From: a virus
Length of the DNA stretch: 30,827 nt
Strand: one strand, 5' to 3'
IMG/VR virus record: IMGVR_UViG_3300008448_000401
Location: 1-30,827 of that record
Shown: positions 2,724 to 17,468 of the stretch, one piece after another
Position numbering within the stretch: the first letter of the stretch is position 1
Layout of the letters: every line of letters begins with the position of its first letter
The notes under the pieces: generated by a model
What the model was told of the DNA's origin: nothing
Database searches by the model: none
Seen by the model: only the letters and a program-made list of their open reading frames with translations
Made by a program: the position numbers and the translations under genes

Positions 2724-5700
2724 ATGGCAACTCCTTTTAGGCTTAAAAGATCTGCTGTACCTGGAAAAAGACCTACATTAAGTGATTTACAGTTAGGAGA
2801 ATTAGGTTTTAATACTTACGATGCGTATCTATTTGCAACAAGAGATGCAAGTGGTGTTGGGATAGGTACGACTGTAACATTATTAACACCTTGGACTGAA
2901 AACTTTGGCGCAGCCTCAATTTATTATCAAAACACTGTTGGAATAGGGACCACAAATCCAACATCAAAATTCACAGTTCAGGGTGATGTATTAATCAGTG
3001 GGTTTAGTACAGTTAGATCTGACCTAACAGTTGCAGGTGTTACCACAACAAGACATTTAAATGTAATTGGATTCACCACAGTTGTTAATCAATCGATTAC
3101 TGGTGTAGCGACGATTGGTGGAAATTTATCTGTCTCTGGTGTCTCTACATTTGGTGGCATTACTACAGTTACTGGGACTACATTATTCTCTAGACAATTA
3201 AATGTTGCAGGTGTATCGACATTTAATCAAGTCAAAATTGGATTTACAACTATTTCGGCAATTGCAAATGATAATTATAATTCAACAATTGTTGTTGGTG
3301 ATGATCTTTATATTTACCAAGATAGAAGTCCTGGAAGTACTCCATACAATACTATTCATAGTAATGAATATGATTTATATCTGGGGACCAGGGGAGAAAC
3401 TGGAGGGAATTTAATCTTCACCTGGTTAGTTGGAATACACACTGGAAATGATGCATTCTCCAATAATAGTGGATGGGTTAGTTTAGGATATGGTGATGAT
3501 CCTTATAAACTTACAACTATTGGATCTGGAGTAACAGTTTCTGGGACTACCTTTACAAATCAATTGAATGTTTCTGGAGTATCTACTTTAGGAACTGGTG
3601 TTACTATTACTTCTGGTGGAAATATCAATGCTGTTTCTGGTGTAGTCACAGCAGCTCAGTTTACAACTGGGGTTGGTGCTGGAATTACAATCACCACAAA
3701 TACAATTTTTGCACCACAACTACTGATTATTGATCCTTCTCCAGCTGGTGTAGGAACAACCAGTGGAGTTGTTCAAATTAAAGGTGATCTTTATGTAGAT
3801 GGTACACAATTTGTTGTTAATTCTACCACCATTGAACTTGGTGATTTTAATATTGGTATTGCAACAACAGTAGGAACCAATGCACTTCTTGATGGTGCAG
3901 GACTTGGAATTGGATCTGCTAATATCCGTAAGAACTTAACATATGCTAATGGTAGCGATTCACTAAAATCAAGTGAGAACTTTGATCTAGCTTCTGGTAA
4001 AGTTTATAAGATTAATGGAACAGAAGTATTAAGTGCAACACAACTTACAGTTGCAAATATTAATGCTGTTGGAGTCTCTACACTGGGAACTCTAGCAGTC
4101 GCTGGAGTTACAACAACCAGACATCTAAATGTCGTTGGTTTCACTACAGTTGTTAATCAATCTATTACTGGTGTAGCGACAGTTGGAACTCTGGCAGTTT
4201 CAGGTGTCACGACAACTCAACACTTAAATGTTTCCGGTGTTTCTACTTTTAGTGGTGCAATTGACGCAAATTCCACATCTAATTTCCAAGGAGATGTCAC
4301 ACTTCAATCTAACTTAATTCTTGGGGATAATGATCAAATAGAATTGGGTGCTAGTACTGATCTTTTAATTACACATTTGTCGTCCACAAATAATTCTTTA
4401 ATCAGAAATTCAAATACACTTGGATCTTTCATTATTGATACTGCTGCTGGAAGTCCCATTGAATTAAGACTCAGTAGTGGTGGAGAAAAAATGGGAGTGT
4501 TCACTCCAAATGGTGCAGTAGAACTCTATTACGACAATGTAAGGGAATTTGAGACCACTGGATATGGTGCTACTGTCTTTGGAGTTCTTCAGACACAAGG
4601 ACTTAATATAACAGGATTCACTACAGTCGTTAACCAGAGTATTACTGGTGTAGCTACTGCTGGAACTTTAGCGGTTTCTGGAGTTACCACAACTCAGCAT
4701 CTTAATGTTGTTGGATTTACAACGGTCGTTAACCAAAGCATAACTGGTGTAGCGACCATTGGAACTTTAGCGGTTTCTGGTGTCACTATAACCCAGCATC
4801 TTAATGTTGTTGGATTTACAACGGTTGTTAATCAATCGATTACTGGTGTAGCGACCATTGGAACTTTAGCGGTTTCTGGTGTCACTACAACCCAGCATCT
4901 TAATGTTGTTGGATTTACAACGGTTGTTAATCAATCGATTACTGGTGTAGCGACGGTTGGATCTAACTTAGCCGTCGCTGGTGTAACCACAACCCAACAC
5001 CTAAACGTAACTGGATTCACCACAGTCGTTAACCAAAGCATTACTGGTGTTTTAACAGTATCGAATGGTATTCAAGGTATTGGTATTCAGTCTGGTGGAT
5101 CTATTATTACGACTGGTATCATTACATCTATTAATTTTGTTGGTGCGGGAAATAGTTTTTCATACAACGCTGGAACTAAGACTGTTGATATCAATATTGG
5201 TGGAAGTCAGTGGACTTTTGTTGATCCTGGCAGTCCAACCGTAAGCAGCATTTATAGAGTAAATGGTAATGTTGGAATAGGAACCACAAATCCAACATCA
5301 AAACTTGATGTTGTAGGAGACATAAAGGTTTCTGGTGTTTCTACATTTCAAGGTAATGTATATCTTGGTGATAATGATAGTTTATATTTTGGTGATGGTA
5401 ATGACTTACAGATTTATAGTGATGGAACTAATAGTTTTATAAGAGAACAAGGTCCAGGATTTTTCTTTATTGATACTAATAATGTAGTTAATATTAGAAA
5501 AAATGCTTCCGAAGATATTGCAAAATTCAATGTTGATGGTGCAGTAGAACTCTATTACGACAACTCTAAAGAATTTGAAACCACTGGATACGGTGCAACG
5601 GTCTTTGGAGTTCTTGAATCACAAGGACTTAATATAACAGGATTCACTACAGTTGTTAACCAGAGTATTACTGGTGTAGCGACAGTCGGATCTAACTTAT

Positions 5701-8700
5701 CCGTCGCTGGAGTTACAACAACTCAACACTTAAACGTAACTGGATTCACTACGGTCGTTAACCAAAGCATAACTGGTGTAGCTACCATTGGAACTCTAGC
5801 GGTTTCTGGAGTTACCACAACTCAGCACTTAAATGTAACTGGATTTACTACAGTCGTTAATCAATCTATTACTGGTGTAGCGACAGTTGGAACTCTGAAT
5901 GTTTCTGGTATTGCTACTTTCCAAAATAATGTAAGTATTGCTGATAGTGCAAATCTATACATTGGTACTGGAAATGATTTAAGAATCTTCCACAATGGAG
6001 CAAATAGTTTTATTCAAGATAATGGAACTGGAAATCTTTTCATTGATGCATCTAACACTTATTATAGAGCTGCCACACACTTAATTCAAAATTCTAGTTC
6101 ATCAGAAAATCTTGCGGTTTTCACTTCAAATGGTTCGGTAGCACTTTATTATGATAACACCAAAACATTTGAAACCACTGGATATGGTGCAACAATATTT
6201 GGTATCCTAGATACTCAAGGACTTAATGTAATTGGTATAGCGACTGTTGGATCTAATTTAGCAGTTTCTGGTATTACAACAGTTGGATCTAACTTAGCAG
6301 TCGCTGGAGTCACTACAACTCAACACCTCAATGTATCTGGATTCACCACCGTTGTTAACCAAAGCATAACTGGTGTAGCGACTGTTGGAACTTTAGCGGT
6401 TTCTGGTGTTACAACAACCAGACATCTAAATGTCGTTGGTTTCACTACAGTTGTTAATCAGAGTATTACTGGTGTTGCTACTGCTGGAACTCTGGCGGTT
6501 TCTGGTGTCACAACAACTCAGCACCTCAACGTATCTGGAATTGCAACATTGAACAGAGTTGCAATAACAACAGAGTTTAACGTTTATGCACCTTTATCTA
6601 CTTTCCACAATGACGTTAATATTAATGGAAACCTTTCAATTGGTGGAACAACAGTTGTTTTAAATGCTGCACAACTTCAAGTAAAGGATAAAGATATTGT
6701 TCTTGGAGTCACTACTAATGCTCTTGGTAATGACGTTTCCAAGGATAGCACTGCAAATCACGGTGGAATTGCGATTGCTTCTACTGAAGGAACTCCACTT
6801 ATTGACATTAATATTGTTGGAATTGATACTATTCCATCCACATATAAGCAAATTATGTGGATTGCAAAAGATACTCTGGGTGCAGGCACAACTGATGCAT
6901 GGCACTTTAATTATGGTGTTGGTATTGGATCTACTCAAATTCCTAATGGAGTTAGACTTGCTGTAGGTCGTGTTCAAGTTACTGATAATACAGTTTCTTC
7001 TGAAAACTTATCGATAAGTGGTGTTGCAACTGTTGGATCTAATTTAACTGTTGCTGGTGTAACTTCAACCAGACACTTAAGTGTCACTGGATTTACCACA
7101 ACTGCAAATCAATCTATTACTGGTGTTGCAACTATTGCAACCCTGGCGGTTACAGGTGTCACCACAACTCAACATCTTAATGTAATTGGTATAGCGACTG
7201 TTCAATCTAACTTAGCAGTTTCTGGTATTGCAACAGTAGGATCTAACCTGGCGGTTTCTGGTGTTACAACAACCAGACACTTGAACGTTATTGGATTCAC
7301 TACTGTTGTGAATCAATCAATAACCGGCGTTGCTACTGCTGGAACTTTAGCGGTTTCTGGTGTCACCACAACTCAGCATTTAAATGTTTCTGGTGTCTCA
7401 ACTCTTGGAGTTTCTACATTCACTGGAACCGTAAGTTTTGGAACTTCTGCTTACTTTGGTGATAATGATATTGCTTATTTTGGTGATGGTAATGATTTAA
7501 ATGTCTATCATGATGGAACTAATAGTTATATTGCTGATTATGGCGTTGGAAGATTAATTCTTGCATCTAATGGTGCTGGAGTTGATATAATAAAAGCACC
7601 TTTTGAAAACATCGCATCATTTAATACCGATGGTGCAGTAGAACTCTATTACGACAACTCTAAAGAATTTGAAACCACTGGATACGGTGCAACGGTCTTT
7701 GGTATTCTTCAATCACAAGGACTTCAAGTTAATTCTGGTGTTTCAACAGTCGGTTTCTTAACGGCAACCAACATCTGGAATGCTGGTATTACAACGTCTT
7801 CAAGACTTACACTGAACGGAGCAAACAACACTGCAGATGGTGGAGGACAGATATATCTCAACGGTGCAACAGGAAACCGTATTGACTTCAACCAAAATGG
7901 TGGTGGTGCTCCTACATTTACAACAAGAAGTGCTGGAACCAAGATAGTTTTATATCCTAATCTTACTGCTGGTTCTGTTGATTATGCACTTGGTATTGAA
8001 GGTAATACCTTATGGTACTCTGTTCCATCTTCATCTAACCAACACCGTTGGTATGCAGGAACCACACAACTCGCAGACCTTAAAGGAACTGGTGAATTAG
8101 TTATTGGTTCTACAAGTCTCACAGGAACCTCAAACCAAAAACTTCAAGTATCTGGTGGTGCTTATGTTTCTGGTTTTGTTGGTATAGGACAGACTAATCC
8201 TGCAAATAGACTTGAAGTTGTTGGAAATACTTGGTTAAATAACTCTTCTGGAGATACCGGAGTAAGAGCACAAGGTCTCACAGTATCACTTGCTCCTAGT
8301 AATAATTTTACACCAGGAACAGATCCTGGCGATTCTTTAAGAAATACTACATTTGCAGTTAAAGGTGCTACAAGACCTGCCATCATCACACTTCGTAATG
8401 TTGATAATGGTAATGCTTTTTATGATTTAATTGCTGATGGAAACAGTAATTCATTCTATATTCAAAGACCAGGAACTTCTCCTGCTCTTACAATTAATAG
8501 TTCTAATAATATCGGCATAGGAACCACAAATCCAACTCAATTACTTGATGTTCGTGGTAATGTAGCGGTTTCTGGTGTCACAACAACGCAACACCTTAAC
8601 GTATCTGGTATTGCAACGATTGCAAATCTAGTTGTTTCTGGAATTATAACAGCGACTTCTGTAGCATCAACGTATGCTATACAAGGATCTGTAGTTTCAT

Positions 8701-8993
8701 CATCATCCACAACAGCACAAATTGGTATTCATTCTGCACTCCCTTCAACAACATATCGTTCTGTTGAATACATGATTCAAGCGGCACAACCAACTAATTT
8801 CCATACAACAAAGATTCTTGTAGTTCATAACGGAACAACTGCATACCTAACTGAATATGGAAGCATTTACAACAGTTCAGTGCTTGCTGATTATGACGTT
8901 GATATTTCTGGTGGAAACATTCGTTTGCTCTCAACACCAGCAAGTGCAGGAATAACAACTTATACAATTAGTTTTACTGCTACTAGAGTCTAA
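2724..8993 (+). CDS. Giant tail-fibre-like structural protein, 2089 residues, modular repeats
   Basis: A very long extracellular-type structural protein, almost certainly a tail fibre or baseplate-attached fibre that contacts the host surface. The N-terminus (MATPFRLKRSAVPGKRPTL) looks like a virion-attachment segment shared by phage fibres. The body is Gly/Thr/Val/Ser-rich, nearly free of Cys, and made of repeats: a 33-residue unit containing GFTTVVNQSITGVAT occurs 14 times (one copy variant), four copies of a longer block ending AVELYYDN..EFETTGYGA(T) are interspersed, and VGIGTTNPTSKL-type motifs recur. Such repeats form extended trimeric beta shafts. The last 120 residues are non-repetitive and may be the receptor-binding or trimer-folding tip; no S74-type peptidase motif was recognised. 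A late-promoter-like word overlaps its stop codon and would serve the next fibre gene. Confidence 0.9.
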   Translation: MATPFRLKRSAVPGKRPTLSDLQLGELGFNTYDAYLFATRDASGVGIGTTVTLLTPWTENFGAASIYYQNTVGIGTTNPTSKFTVQGDVLISGFSTVRSDLTVAGVTTTRHLNVIGFTTVVNQSITGVATIGGNLSVSGVSTFGGITTVTGTTLFSRQLNVAGVSTFNQVKIGFTTISAIANDNYNSTIVVGDDLYIYQDRSPGSTPYNTIHSNEYDLYLGTRGETGGNLIFTWLVGIHTGNDAFSNNSGWVSLGYGDDPYKLTTIGSGVTVSGTTFTNQLNVSGVSTLGTGVTITSGGNINAVSGVVTAAQFTTGVGAGITITTNTIFAPQLLIIDPSPAGVGTTSGVVQIKGDLYVDGTQFVVNSTTIELGDFNIGIATTVGTNALLDGAGLGIGSANIRKNLTYANGSDSLKSSENFDLASGKVYKINGTEVLSATQLTVANINAVGVSTLGTLAVAGVTTTRHLNVVGFTTVVNQSITGVATVGTLAVSGVTTTQHLNVSGVSTFSGAIDANSTSNFQGDVTLQSNLILGDNDQIELGASTDLLITHLSSTNNSLIRNSNTLGSFIIDTAAGSPIELRLSSGGEKMGVFTPNGAVELYYDNVREFETTGYGATVFGVLQTQGLNITGFTTVVNQSITGVATAGTLAVSGVTTTQHLNVVGFTTVVNQSITGVATIGTLAVSGVTITQHLNVVGFTTVVNQSITGVATIGTLAVSGVTTTQHLNVVGFTTVVNQSITGVATVGSNLAVAGVTTTQHLNVTGFTTVVNQSITGVLTVSNGIQGIGIQSGGSIITTGIITSINFVGAGNSFSYNAGTKTVDINIGGSQWTFVDPGSPTVSSIYRVNGNVGIGTTNPTSKLDVVGDIKVSGVSTFQGNVYLGDNDSLYFGDGNDLQIYSDGTNSFIREQGPGFFFIDTNNVVNIRKNASEDIAKFNVDGAVELYYDNSKEFETTGYGATVFGVLESQGLNITGFTTVVNQSITGVATVGSNLSVAGVTTTQHLNVTGFTTVVNQSITGVATIGTLAVSGVTTTQHLNVTGFTTVVNQSITGVATVGTLNVSGIATFQNNVSIADSANLYIGTGNDLRIFHNGANSFIQDNGTGNLFIDASNTYYRAATHLIQNSSSSENLAVFTSNGSVALYYDNTKTFETTGYGATIFGILDTQGLNVIGIATVGSNLAVSGITTVGSNLAVAGVTTTQHLNVSGFTTVVNQSITGVATVGTLAVSGVTTTRHLNVVGFTTVVNQSITGVATAGTLAVSGVTTTQHLNVSGIATLNRVAITTEFNVYAPLSTFHNDVNINGNLSIGGTTVVLNAAQLQVKDKDIVLGVTTNALGNDVSKDSTANHGGIAIASTEGTPLIDINIVGIDTIPSTYKQIMWIAKDTLGAGTTDAWHFNYGVGIGSTQIPNGVRLAVGRVQVTDNTVSSENLSISGVATVGSNLTVAGVTSTRHLSVTGFTTTANQSITGVATIATLAVTGVTTTQHLNVIGIATVQSNLAVSGIATVGSNLAVSGVTTTRHLNVIGFTTVVNQSITGVATAGTLAVSGVTTTQHLNVSGVSTLGVSTFTGTVSFGTSAYFGDNDIAYFGDGNDLNVYHDGTNSYIADYGVGRLILASNGAGVDIIKAPFENIASFNTDGAVELYYDNSKEFETTGYGATVFGILQSQGLQVNSGVSTVGFLTATNIWNAGITTSSRLTLNGANNTADGGGQIYLNGATGNRIDFNQNGGGAPTFTTRSAGTKIVLYPNLTAGSVDYALGIEGNTLWYSVPSSSNQHRWYAGTTQLADLKGTGELVIGSTSLTGTSNQKLQVSGGAYVSGFVGIGQTNPANRLEVVGNTWLNNSSGDTGVRAQGLTVSLAPSNNFTPGTDPGDSLRNTTFAVKGATRPAIITLRNVDNGNAFYDLIADGNSNSFYIQRPGTSPALTINSSNNIGIGTTNPTQLLDVRGNVAVSGVTTTQHLNVSGIATIANLVVSGIITATSVASTYAIQGSVVSSSSTTAQIGIHSALPSTTYRSVEYMIQAAQPTNFHTTKILVVHNGTTAYLTEYGSIYNSSVLADYDVDISGGNIRLLSTPASAGITTYTISFTATRV
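4600..5050 (+). repeat. Tandem 99-bp coding repeats in the fibre gene
   Basis: Here the 33-residue units lie head to tail. The anchor word GCATC recurs at 4697, 4796 and 4895, exactly 99 bp apart, and the next unit begins 102 bp on because its linker has one more residue (VGSNLAVAG instead of IGTLAVSG). Units differ at few, mostly silent positions. Further copies are dispersed at about 3050, 4120, 5640, 5740, 5840, 6340, 6430, 7090 and 7290. Confidence 0.95.
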
Positions 8994-12256: not shown

Positions 12257-15200
12257 ATGGCAAGAAAAGTAATTTATGAATCTGGGTATACGTTTACCCC
12301 CTCAACTAAAACAATTACTATACCTAAATTGATTCCTAGGGAAAGGTTAGTTCTGATTACAAATGTCACGACAAATCAGGTAATCTATAATTTTTCTGAT
12401 CCAAGTCTAAAGGCGACTTCTTATACTTTAGCTACAACAGATATTAATAATCCAAGAACAACAATTGTTCTGAATTATAATACTGCGTCGATGAGCTCAT
12501 CTCATAAGCTCTCGATTATATTTGATGAATTCGAAGAAAGATTTATTCCTGGGGAAACATACACCGACCCAGTAAACAAGTTTAGAGTATCCCAACCACA
12601 AGCTCTTATTGATACTGACTTTGAATATAGCGTACAAAATACTAAATGGGAAAACCTTACACAGATTAATTACCGTCCGTTTGTTTATCCAACGATTACT
12701 CCAATTTCCAATATCAATTATATTTCATATGGTACTGGATCAAAAACTGTTTTTGTTGGTTTAACTACAAGCACAGGTTGCCCAGGAGTAGGAACTGCAA
12801 TTTCAGTTCAAGATACATTTTTGACTCCTGCAAATGGAAACTTCCTTGTTCAGCAAGTTTTTGGAGTTCCTGGAGCATCAGGACCAGGAACATTCTTTAC
12901 TTATTCTGCAACTGCTACTAATTCAACTGCAATTACTCAGATTTTTGATAGCAATAAAACTGGAATTTTTACAGGATCACTTTTTACAAGCGCAAGAATT
13001 GGAGGTACTCCACTTATTACAACTTCAACTTCTGGAGTTGTTACTGTAACCACAAGTGTTCCTCATGGTCTATCAGTTGGTAATGAAGTTGCAATTCGTG
13101 GCATGGGAGGCACTAACCCATGTAATGGTTCATTCTCTATTGTTGGTATTCCAAGTTCCAGAGCCTTTATTATAGGTGTAAGCTCAGTTCCTCTTCTTAC
13201 TGGTGCTAATAATGGAGCTAACCCAGGTATTGCGACAGGAGCTGAAATTTATGTAAGACCACCTGGACAAGTTCTACACAGACCATTTGATGGTGGAGTT
13301 ATCTTCTCATCTAATGCGAATGGAAACTATGAAAGACAAATTCGTCAAACAAGAAGATATTTCCGTTATCAATCTGGTAAAGGTATACAGGTAAGTTCTG
13401 GTACAATTATTAAGCCAGCATTCCAAGTAGATTCTATTACTTCTGTAGGAACTGCAGTAACTGTTATTACGAAAGACAGGCATAATATTCAGCCAGGAAC
13501 TACAATTGAAGTTAGTGGATGTAATGAATCTGCATATAATGGAACTTTTGAAGTTTCTATTATTAAAGGTTTTAATACATTTGAATACACTGCATTATCT
13601 ACTCCTTCAGCAGCAATTGCATCGGGTAAACCTATTATAAGTGTAACCAATTGGTATGGTGCTGTAAATCGATTAGGTACATTTGATGATCAAAATGGTA
13701 TTTTCTTCGAATATGATGGGCAAAAGCTTTATGCAGTTCGCAGACAATCTACTTTCCAACTTTCTGGAAGAGTCAGTGTTGTAACTGGTATTAATACAGT
13801 AACACAAACAAATGCTGCATTCCCAACTTATTTCTCTAAACAGCTTACAATTGGTGATACAATTGTAATTCGTGGTCAGTCTTATAGAGTATTTGACATT
13901 GAAAGTGATGGCAATCTTATCATCTCACCTTCGTATCGCGGTGCTAACGCTGATTATGCCACTGTTTCTAGAGTTGAAAATTTAAAAACAGAACAAGCCG
14001 CTTGGAACCTTGATAAGTGTGATGGAAATGGACCTTCTGGATATAATTTGAATCTTGCTAGAATGCAGATGTTCTACATGGACTATTCCTGGTATGGTGC
14101 TGGATTTGTTCGTTGGGGATTCCGTGGACAAGATGGAAACGTTATATATTGCCATAAACTAATTAATAACAATCAAAACACTGAAGCATACATGAGATCT
14201 GGTAACCTACCAGCTCGCTATGAAACAGATTCGGAGCCACCAAAAACTCAGATTACCCAATCAGTTTCTACAACTGATAGCTATATTGGTATTGGAAGTA
14301 CGGCAGGATTCCCAACAAATGGTGGAGTACTCTTACTTCGCAACGGTGCTAATTATGAGTACGTATCTTATGCTGGAATTGGAACTACAGCATTCACTGG
14401 GGTTGTACGAGGAAAATCCACTACTGCATTAGATTTTAGTACTGCAACTGGTGGAGGTATGGGAACTAGTCGAAATCAGGTATCTGGAGTAACAACAACT
14501 AATTTGCAAATTGGTATGAGAGCGTTGCATCCAAATTTACCTGAAGGAACATGGATTTCTGCAATTTCTTCTGCTGGTAGTGGAACTATTACTCTTGTTA
14601 ATGCTTCTACAGGATTTGTTAGTGGTATAGTCACATTTGTTGGTATGGGTGGCACTGTATCATCAATTCTATTCTCAGGAAATAATCCCGCTGGCGTTGA
14701 ACTTGCATATCCAACTTTTGGACCAACAATATCACACTGGGGAACTAGTGTAATTATGGATGGTAGATTTGATACTGATAAATCCTTGATCTTCACTTAT
14801 GGTCAAACTGGTGTTACAACAGTTACTTCACTGCAAACCAGAGCATTGTTCTCAATTAGAGTTGCTCCTTCTGTAGATAATGGTATTGCCGCTGGATTTG
14901 GTGCAAGAGAACTGATTAATAGAATGCAATTGACTCTCAAATCTCTAGATATTACTTCGACAGGTACTAACACAAACCTTCTAGTTCAAGCAATTCTAAA
15001 TGGTGTCCCATCACAAGGTGCTACTTGGACTAATGCTGTTGGTAATGCAACTAACCGTGCAAACTCCTCTTTAGCACAAATTGCAGATTATGCTTCATTG
15101 TCTGGAGCAACATCCGTTAATGGTGGTGAAGTAATCGCTGGATTCTTTGTTGGTTCTGGTGCAAACTCAATTGACCTAACGGAAGTTCGAGACCTTGGTA

Positions 15201-15397: not shown

Positions 15398-17056
15398 GTG
15401 TCACTGAATAGGTACACAAACAACTTTAGAACTCCTCTAGAGGCAGAGAGTATATCAGGATTATCTCCTACTTTTGGTAGTGATAATCCTGTTTTAGACC
15501 TTGACGCACCTAAATTGGATATCAATGGTACTGAATTAAATGTAATTTCAAGAAATATTAATTTTTCTCATACAACTGGATTGACCACTTTTAGAGGTCA
15601 AGTTGGTATAGGAACTACATTAACTCCAGTCTCCAACTTGTCAACAAAATTGGAAATCTATGGTGGTGGGGGAAATGTTGTTGTTGGAACTCTTTTTGAT
15701 ACAACTACAGCTCTTTATTTAAATACACTGCCAGGAATTGGTTGGACTGATTATAATTTAGCGTCAAGTGCTGCAAGAAATTTAATAGTTAATCGACCTT
15801 CTACAAATCAGATACTATTTGCACAAGGCAATTCAACTCATGCTGCGTTTAATGCTAGTAATTATTTAATTTTAAGTAGTGGTGGATTAGGTATTGGTGC
15901 GGACAATAGTGCAACTGAGTATCTATTATGGGTTAATGGACCATCTGCATTTATAGGAACAATACGCTTAGGATCTAATCCAACTGGTGTTGGGTTTGGA
16001 ACGACTACTTTTAATCCACCATATGCCATTCAGCAAACGATGGGTGGTGATGATGGATGGAGAATTTATGGAGAATCTTTATCAACTAATACTGGATCTT
16101 TAATTCTTGAAGTTAATGATGACCGCGATGGTAGCGAAGATATACAATTCAGAAACAGGATAGATTATGGAACTACTGTTGGTGTTACTACGTTTTTAAG
16201 ATTAGGTCAAAGTGCAAACATAATGGACAGTGGAGCTCCACTGCTCATTGGTACAGCAACGTCCACTGGAGCTTGGAATCAGAGACTTCAAGTTCAAGGT
16301 GGAGCTTCATTTACTGGCACTGCTTCTAGTGTTGGTATTGGAACTTCAATTGCAAAAGCAATTCTTCATCTTGGAGAAGGTAGAGCTGCTGCAAATAATG
16401 CACCACTTAAATTCACACCGGGAACTAACCTTGCAACCGTAGAAGCAGGTACAGTTGAGTTTGATGGAACTACATTAAATTTCACACCAAACTCTTCAAT
16501 AGGTAGGGCAGCTATTCCCATAACAGTATACACTTCTGGACAAGGCACTGCTTTAACCGCTGCAGGGGAATCAAACCCTCAAACATTATTTCCGGCAGCA
16601 AATGATACCATTAATTTGCCAATAGGGACTTATTACCTTGATTTAAATATGTCCTTTCAAAGAGGAACTACATCAACTACACTTGCACAACCTAGAATAA
16701 GATTTGCTGGCGGCACTACAACGATAAGTGGATCGTTTAGTGGAATTGCTATTGGATCAAACCTTGGTCAACTTGGAAGTGGTGCTGGAATTACGAGTTC
16801 TTTTATTTTAAGCTCGGCAGTAATAACAGCTGATAATATTATCGGTGTTGCAGCTACAACTCCGTTAGCAACTTATGTCTCTAGAGTATCGGGAATTTTA
16901 AGAGTTACAACAGCAGGAATATTTACTCCTGCATATAGTTTGAGTGCAAACTTAACTTCTGCAGGAACCGCATCATCACCATCAGCAATGAATCATATGG
17001 TAATTCGATCATTAGCGACATCAGGATCAGTACCTAATGTCGGACTCTGGACATAA
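15398..17056 (+). CDS. Tail-fibre-like structural protein, 552 residues
   Basis: Fourth gene of the fibre block. The start GTG 15398 is set by a strong Shine-Dalgarno AGAGGGGGA (15382-15390) seven bases upstream. The N-terminus (MSLNRYTNNFRTPLEAESIS) differs from the first two fibres, so it likely attaches elsewhere. The middle carries fibre-type modules related to those proteins (GQVGIGTT, then LIGTATSTGAWNQRLQVQGG and VGIGTS). The C-terminal 180 residues contain INLPIGTYYLDLNMSFQRG and end VPNVGLWT, an all-beta domain resembling the jelly-roll tips of fibres; it may contact the host. No repeats of the 33-residue unit occur. A sigma70-type promoter begins five bases after its stop codon. Confidence 0.85.
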   Translation: MSLNRYTNNFRTPLEAESISGLSPTFGSDNPVLDLDAPKLDINGTELNVISRNINFSHTTGLTTFRGQVGIGTTLTPVSNLSTKLEIYGGGGNVVVGTLFDTTTALYLNTLPGIGWTDYNLASSAARNLIVNRPSTNQILFAQGNSTHAAFNASNYLILSSGGLGIGADNSATEYLLWVNGPSAFIGTIRLGSNPTGVGFGTTTFNPPYAIQQTMGGDDGWRIYGESLSTNTGSLILEVNDDRDGSEDIQFRNRIDYGTTVGVTTFLRLGQSANIMDSGAPLLIGTATSTGAWNQRLQVQGGASFTGTASSVGIGTSIAKAILHLGEGRAAANNAPLKFTPGTNLATVEAGTVEFDGTTLNFTPNSSIGRAAIPITVYTSGQGTALTAAGESNPQTLFPAANDTINLPIGTYYLDLNMSFQRGTTSTTLAQPRIRFAGGTTTISGSFSGIAIGSNLGQLGSGAGITSSFILSSAVITADNIIGVAATTPLATYVSRVSGILRVTTAGIFTPAYSLSANLTSAGTASSPSAMNHMVIRSLATSGSVPNVGLWT

Positions 17057-17061
17057 ACTAT

Positions 17062-17090
17062 TTGACATTTTTTATAAAACACCTTATAAT
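17062..17090 (+). promoter_or_regulatory. Perfect consensus sigma70-type promoter
   Basis: TTGACA (17062-17067), a spacer of exactly 17 bp, and TATAAT (17085-17090): both hexamers and the spacing are at consensus. Transcription would start at about 17097. It lies just after the last fibre gene and would be read by host RNA polymerase early in infection. Confidence 0.88.
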
Positions 17091-17096
17091 ATCTAA

Positions 17097-17197
17097 GTCT
17101 TCAATATCCTTGTATCTTTGGGAATGAAGACCACTTCTCTGTGGTGGGAGAGGTGAGTTGGTGGTATAATGGGGAGGGTTTTAAACCCTCCTTTTTT
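17097..17197 (+). ncRNA. Candidate structured small RNA, about 100 nt
   Basis: A consensus promoter and a strong terminator enclose about 100 nt without a convincing gene. The 5' end could fold at once: GTCTTCA (17097-17103, starting at the predicted +1) pairs perfectly with TGAAGAC (17125-17131). A second hairpin is possible as CACTTCTC (17132-17139) with GAGAGGTG (17148-17155), or as the shorter CCAC/GTGG. The terminator stem closes the RNA. It could be a trans-acting phage RNA, or the leader of the glutaredoxin gene with the terminator as attenuator. A 10-codon frame (17124-17156, MKTTSLWWER) lies inside but has a poor ribosome site. No known RNA family was recognised. Confidence 0.55.
17171..17197 (+). 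terminator. Strong intrinsic terminator
   Basis: GGAGGGTTT (17173-17181) pairs with AAACCCTCC (17183-17191) and is followed by TTTTTT. Counting a realistic three-base loop, the stem is 8 bp, six of them G-C rich. It ends transcripts from the fibre genes and from the promoter at 17062. Confidence 0.93.
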
Positions 17198-17231
17198 CTA
17201 TTATAAATTATTAATAATCTATCTAATAATT

Positions 17232-17468
17232 ATGAATTTTGTAGTCTATTCAAAAGAGGGTTGTCCACACTGCTACCGTGTCAAAAAAGTATTAGAGTTG
17301 ACAGGAAGCAACTTTGTGATTTATAATTTAGGGGAGCATTTTACTAAAGAAGAATTTTATTCAGAATTTGGTAAAGGGTCTACATTTCCTCAAGTTGTTT
17401 GTAATGATAAAAAACTTGGTGGATGTACGGATACTGTAAAATTCCTACAAGAAAATCAAATTGTCTAA
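17232..17468 (+). CDS. grx: Glutaredoxin
   Basis: A 78-residue thioredoxin-fold redox protein. The active site CPHC follows the first strand (YSKEGCPHCYRVKKVLE), cis-Pro appears in STFPQVV, and the glutathione-binding GGCTDT follows. Length and motifs match the T4 NrdC-type glutaredoxins of phages, which reduce ribonucleotide reductase for dNTP supply or adjust host redox enzymes. The start is ATG 17232; an in-frame ATG at 17169 would place coding sequence across the terminator stem and is rejected. The stop overlaps the next frame (TTG 17461) by eight bases. Confidence 0.93.
   Translation: MNFVVYSKEGCPHCYRVKKVLELTGSNFVIYNLGEHFTKEEFYSEFGKGSTFPQVVCNDKKLGGCTDTVKFLQENQIV

Follow-up and report, generated by a model that had tools for sequence, protein, structure and literature searches.

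The window (the whole stretch of 30,827 nt that was analysed) covers part of the genome of a T4-like cyanophage. Its left end carries a psbD-type photosystem II gene, followed by a run of fibre and virion genes, one of which (2724-8993) encodes a fibre-type protein of 2089 aa that consists mostly of repeats of the type VTTTQHLNVVGFTTVVNQSITGVATVG. Beyond the fibre run the gene order is glutaredoxin (grx), a DUF2973-like gene, thymidylate synthase, PhoH and a gp32-type single-strand binding protein. The element described here occupies the gap between the final fibre-region gene, which ends at 17056, and grx, and the ORF list of the window shows no long ORF on the strand opposite to it. The features of the locus are given in Table 1.

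Table 1. Features of the RNA locus and its 3' neighbour in the window.
Feature	Position	Strand	Remarks
Sigma70-type consensus promoter of the RNA, TTGACA-N17-TATAAT	17062..17090	+	Exact hexamers
Hairpin 1	17097..17131	+	Starts at the predicted +1; covariation at several pairs
Hairpin 2	17132..17155	+	Stem CACTTCTCT (17132-17140) with GGAGAGGTG (17147-17155)
Single-stranded linker	17156..17170	+	Conserved TTGGTG at 17158-17163
Intrinsic terminator, GGGGAGGG..CCCTCC, then T-run	17171..17197	+	Ends the RNA
TATAAATTA, T4-type late-promoter-like motif	17202..17210	+	Between terminator and grx
Glutaredoxin (NrdC-like) gene	17232..17468	+	Pfam PF00462, E 3.4e-12; phrog_22; usual 3' neighbour of the RNA

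The initial annotation had proposed a small structured RNA of about 100 nt between a perfect promoter and a strong terminator, and such a unit is indeed present and conserved in cyanophages. Both promoter hexamers are exact (TTGACA at 17062-17067, a spacer of 17 nt, TATAAT at 17085-17090), and because the -10 element ends at 17090, transcription is expected to begin at 17097, where hairpin 1 starts. The pairing predicted from that base, GTCTTCA (17097-17103) with TGAAGAC (17125-17131), forms the outer stem of hairpin 1, which has in addition an inner stem, TCCT/GGGA, and a loop of 9 nt, TGTATCTTT (17111-17119). The second proposed stem, CACTTCTC (17132-17139) with GAGAGGTG (17148-17155), is also there, and the 6-nt loop of this hairpin is GTGGTG (17141-17146). 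The terminator stem (17171-17193) follows about 100 nt downstream, as had been described, with a T-run reaching 17197. The predicted folding energy is -23.5 kcal/mol for the two hairpins together (z -3.6; 2 of 200 shuffles equally good) and -38.9 kcal/mol for the full 101 nt (z -3.6; 0 of 200), in whose predicted fold all three hairpins are formed at once. With its own promoter and its own intrinsic terminator, the RNA has the signals of an independent transcription unit. Shuffled windows are expected to contain 0.07 matches to TTGACA-N16-18-TATAAT, and the window contains two. The other one, TTGACA-N18-TATAAT at 17298-17327, lies inside the glutaredoxin coding sequence and is present also in S-SRM01, G002 and G003; its letters encode a conserved LTGSNFVVYN stretch, and it may either be a chance by-product of protein conservation or act as a genuine internal promoter.

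A search with the glutaredoxin protein yielded 80 viral loci, in each of which the 230 bases 5' of the start codon were inspected, and further copies came from pattern scans independent of grx, giving a family of 147 copies in 78 sequence clusters. The two-hairpin unit was seen upstream of many of the 80 grx loci, with different stem letters and the same pairing. The seed alignment comprises 30 diverse copies and has 18 pairs; pairing is standard in 95% of cells, and eight of the pairs show changes on both sides. Cells changed on both sides number 39, against 10.3 after shuffling, and sliding the partners by one to three columns leaves only 1 to 6. A further 46 distinct rows, aligned to the model and hence biased towards its structure, gave 52 both-side changes against 13.0 in shuffled data. 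Across the two alignments 95–97% of cells are paired, RNAalifold recovered a nearly identical structure unaided, and the check proposed at the outset, conservation of the stems in relatives by compensating changes, thus gives strong support. Even the pair closing GUGGUG occurs as UG, UA, GU, CG, AU and GC. The near-invariant stretches are unpaired, namely the hairpin 1 loop UGURNCUUY, the hairpin 2 loop GUGGUG and a linker that usually reads UUGGUG ((U)UGGUG more generally). Of 75 distinct cores, 71 have GUGGUG as the hairpin 2 loop, although the letters of the stem vary by compensation. The constancy of the unpaired stretches is partly imposed by the search patterns, and the loci sampled through grx show it too. 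A short peptide was considered as the product and rejected, as neither start nor frame is conserved: 12 of 76 distinct cores have no ATG, and hairpin lengths differ by non-multiples of three.

Comparison of the copies therefore identifies a conserved two-hairpin RNA, evidently selected for its structure and equipped with a near-perfect promoter and its own terminator. That the family is real as a conserved structure is, in our judgement, hardly in doubt, and since evolution has retained the shape of the RNA, it very probably does a genuine job early in infection. What was first noticed in the window is confirmed more strongly than it had been stated, and its interpretation is supported in part. 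On a quite different view the element would not function as an RNA gene and would instead be conserved as a landmark for recombination, with exchangeable tail-fibre cassettes on one side and the constant grx region on the other. This view can point to fibre-type genes that join at or inside the element (L089 12582-12650, L181) and to L022, which breaks in the linker; it is nevertheless very improbable, as a landmark would conserve DNA letters and not compensatory base pairing, a promoter or a terminator. The L089 junction (12582-12650, minus strand) is a second, truncated copy: the promoter and hairpin 1 are present, only half of hairpin 2 remains, and the copy is joined to a glycine-rich fibre-type gene at the 3' end of the latter. 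It thus represents a recombination junction inside the RNA gene.

The carriers, viruses of picocyanobacteria, are almost all uncultured cyanophages, with a single isolate, S-SRM01. A covariance model found the element in 41 of 54 whole viral records, nearly always as a single copy, including the complete S-SRM01 genome (240 kb) and contigs of 211–236 kb; the records were chosen mostly as known carriers and so inform copy number, not frequency. No copy was found in the isolates and single-cell viruses S-SKS1, P-TIM68, S-T4, S-CAM9, S-H34, S-SCSM1, ACG-2014f and AG-345-L05, or in two fragments. The full model found no copy in 300 genomes of the WH7803 family, and across 194 genomes of the phylum it gave a single hit at E 0.04, inside a gene read by eye as a histidine kinase. 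Since the sampled cyanobacterial genomes (about 490) are without a copy, the RNA looks like a phage gene and not like a captured host RNA. Hairpin 1 on its own could be imagined as a 36-nt repeat-like unit that mimics a CRISPR repeat and serves as a decoy (an RNA anti-CRISPR), and in length and outline it does resemble certain cyanobacterial repeats. This is extremely unlikely: hairpin 1 matched none of the 151 genomes sampled from the Synechococcus WH7803 family, its pattern had no exact match in 84,980 species genomes, and hairpin 2 and the linker would be left unexplained. The S-SRM01 study, moreover, found no CRISPR in Synechococcus SR-R4S1 and SR-C6 (PMC8557907).

Searches of Rfam, both at the gathering threshold and at E<=10, returned chance matches only, in line with the earlier statement that no described family fits, and no tRNA or tmRNA was found. 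A tRNA D-arm-like look of GAGTTGGTGG was considered and found to be unsupported. No cyanophage RNA of the two-hairpin kind was found in the literature covered, which leaves out many subscription papers. The RNA is previously undescribed, a new family within a known kind, the phage sRNAs.

The transcription signals are as constant as the fold. Among clusters with enough upstream sequence, 59 of 75 have TTGACA and TATAAT in the identical position and with the same spacing, the -10 sitting five nt 5' of the model start. A T-run follows the terminator stem in 71 of 78 clusters, its onset lying 91–98 nt past the model start in most, and the sequence of the terminator stem itself is variable; copies of the L181 type have no promoter. 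S-SRM01 has ten further perfect promoters, one of them inside grx. The other nine lie outside grx; seven of these have an ORF following within about 50 nt and two lead into the tRNA region (tRNA positions taken from PMC8557907), so the remark that a perfect promoter is unusual for a mere 100 nt was a fair one. The hairpin-hairpin-terminator plan is absent behind all nine, which makes the RNA unit peculiar even inside the S-SRM01 genome. Among the early-type promoters of S-SRM01, G002, G004, G007 and G011, several agree in letters of the spacer as well as in the hexamers, with roughly TTGACACCNGACYCARRAYCCCYTATAAT in common. At two grx loci (L006 and L020) the promoter and terminator are retained upstream and both hairpins are gone, leaving a leader of about 45 nt; these are natural deletion derivatives that could be used as controls.

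Further signals lie between the RNA and grx. The linker in the window holds TGGTATAAT (17162-17170), an extended -10-like sequence abutting the terminator stem, and a transcript from it would start within that stem and would thus escape the terminator. Of 75 clusters, 44 have the motif TGNTATAAT in the linker, and the same motif is also found 5' of grx in phages that lack the RNA (L014, L053, L055, L062, L063, L067, L077 and L080). The TATAAATTA motif, presumably a late promoter as judged from T4, is present in most of the related loci inspected and in several that lack the RNA. We infer three tiers from these motifs: the RNA would have an early promoter, grx an extended -10 promoter, and a late-type promoter would form the third. 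In marine T4-like cyanophages, middle promoters like those of T4 are absent, as are motA and/or asiA (PMC5780444).

How the RNA relates to grx bears directly on whether it acts in cis or in trans. Among 117 copies found without using grx, 103 have grx within 900 nt downstream at nearly constant spacing, and the two are linked in 73 of the 78 clusters; such tight linkage fits a cis element, and common descent explains it too. A regulated leader of grx, either attenuator or riboswitch, would account for the near-constant spacing. Five of the 78 clusters, however, lack this linkage, and complete units are among them. In G004 and G005 a complete promoter-RNA-terminator unit lies about 35 kb from grx and is followed by a second perfect promoter and a DUF7294 gene; in G004 no such unit precedes grx. 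A complete unit in L245 stands 5' of an unrelated gene, and in L234, a contig with a psbA-type gene, a divergent unit, with other base pairs making up its hairpin 2, precedes other small genes. Conversely, many phages carry grx without the RNA, the unit being adjacent in 28 of the 80 grx loci (some contigs are short). An attenuator would also need an antiterminator pairing that excludes the terminator, and the predicted fold accommodates all three hairpins together. Hairpin 2 and the terminator show no co-evolution in an arm-swap comparison: pairing between their arms is as good in swapped (-9.85 +/- 0.17 kcal/mol) as in native combinations (-9.86), whereas the two arms of hairpin 2 pair better in native (-10.34) than in swapped combinations (-7.98 +/- 0.23). 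Neither mutually exclusive pairing nor a constant position upstream of the regulated gene was thus found, and a leader function is distinctly unlikely. The distant units in G004/G005, L234 and L245, the lack of co-evolution and the frequent occurrence of grx without the RNA together favour a separate RNA. Of the two roles first offered, action in trans has accordingly gained support, and that of an attenuated grx leader is weak.

On the grx tree, which is poorly resolved, even close relatives differ in whether they have the RNA: at least 3 changes are forced and parsimony counts 22, so that the RNA is not essential everywhere. Some individual loci have unusual arrangements. In L315 an ORF of 212 aa, HNH-endonuclease-like by eye and without a Pfam hit in its first 90 residues, lies between the RNA and grx, about 125–760 nt past the RNA start. 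L181 (2433-2499, minus strand) and G004 (16818-16884) each carry a promoterless, near-consensus copy of the RNA plus terminator, just 3' of the stop codon of an 89-aa ORF and 5' of a collagen-repeat fibre gene; both phages hold a complete unit elsewhere.

The element is probably a stand-alone phage small-RNA gene, specifying a discrete early RNA that acts in trans. Its tight linkage to grx, its patchy presence and the promoterless copies of the L181 type weigh against this reading. Host RNA polymerase with its primary sigma factor would transcribe 17097 to about 17195 early in infection, and the product of about 100 nt would accumulate before acting; from the promoter, we infer that the RNA is both early and abundant. 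Its working surface would most likely be the near-invariant parts, that is, the two loops and the unpaired UUGGUG of the linker, so that two copies of UGGUG would be offered single-stranded by the hairpin 2 loop and the linker. The partners may be RNAs with CACCA-type sites, from either host or phage, or else a protein of the host. For the grx operon downstream, separate transcription would come from the extended -10 site and the late-type motif. It is also conceivable, though unlikely, that the two single-stranded UGGUG elements make the RNA a nascent or trans-acting regulator of host RNA polymerase, serving either processive antitermination of the put type or host takeover; it would be the first such RNA in cyanophages.

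The main rival to a trans-acting small RNA is a nascent RNA like put of phage HK022. Put RNA works through the beta' zinc-binding domain of RNA polymerase to keep the enzyme from terminating downstream. By analogy, the cyanophage hairpins would bind the polymerase that made them and cause readthrough of the adjacent and later terminators into the early/middle block of glutaredoxin, thyX, phoH and gp32. The RNA begins exactly at the predicted +1 and this block usually comes next, and size and plan match those of putL strikingly well, which likewise has two stem-loops in about 70 nt behind an early promoter, an internal -10-like sequence and terminators downstream (PMC9378689). Yet nearly all long records have one copy per genome (about 200 kb) and not one at each early operon; terminators are retained right behind the RNA, which would be odd if they were constantly bypassed; the block runs without the RNA in many phages; and the gene past the terminator in G004 has a perfect promoter of its own, as does, without the RNA, the S-SRM01 gene that appears by eye to be its homologue. 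Put-like antitermination is for these reasons rather unlikely.

An RNA that is conserved and strongly promoted is a new candidate regulator for host takeover and gene timing in cyanophages, and adds a covariation-supported family to a phage group with few known RNAs. Its presence in a cultured phage, S-SRM01, makes direct testing possible. T4-like cyanophages are known to carry other structured or regulatory RNAs, namely wcaG, manA, PhotoRC-II and glnA (all in Rfam) and CfrI of S-PM2. These are cis-regulatory motifs or antisense to psbA. The two-hairpin RNA differs from them in having its own promoter and terminator, a gene-free opposite strand and no Rfam match. To HK022 putL and putR it can be likened by plan, with two adjacent stem-loops of about 70 nt immediately 3' of an early promoter and a terminator downstream; it differs in being present once per genome, with its own terminator directly behind, in having standalone copies, and in belonging to phages of another host phylum. 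Comparable too are the trans-acting phage sRNAs sar of P22, phi24B_1 and AgvB (PMC12197685), which are likewise short and transcribed as units of their own, although these come from temperate phages or prophages of enterobacteria and have no known sequence relation to the cyanophage RNA.
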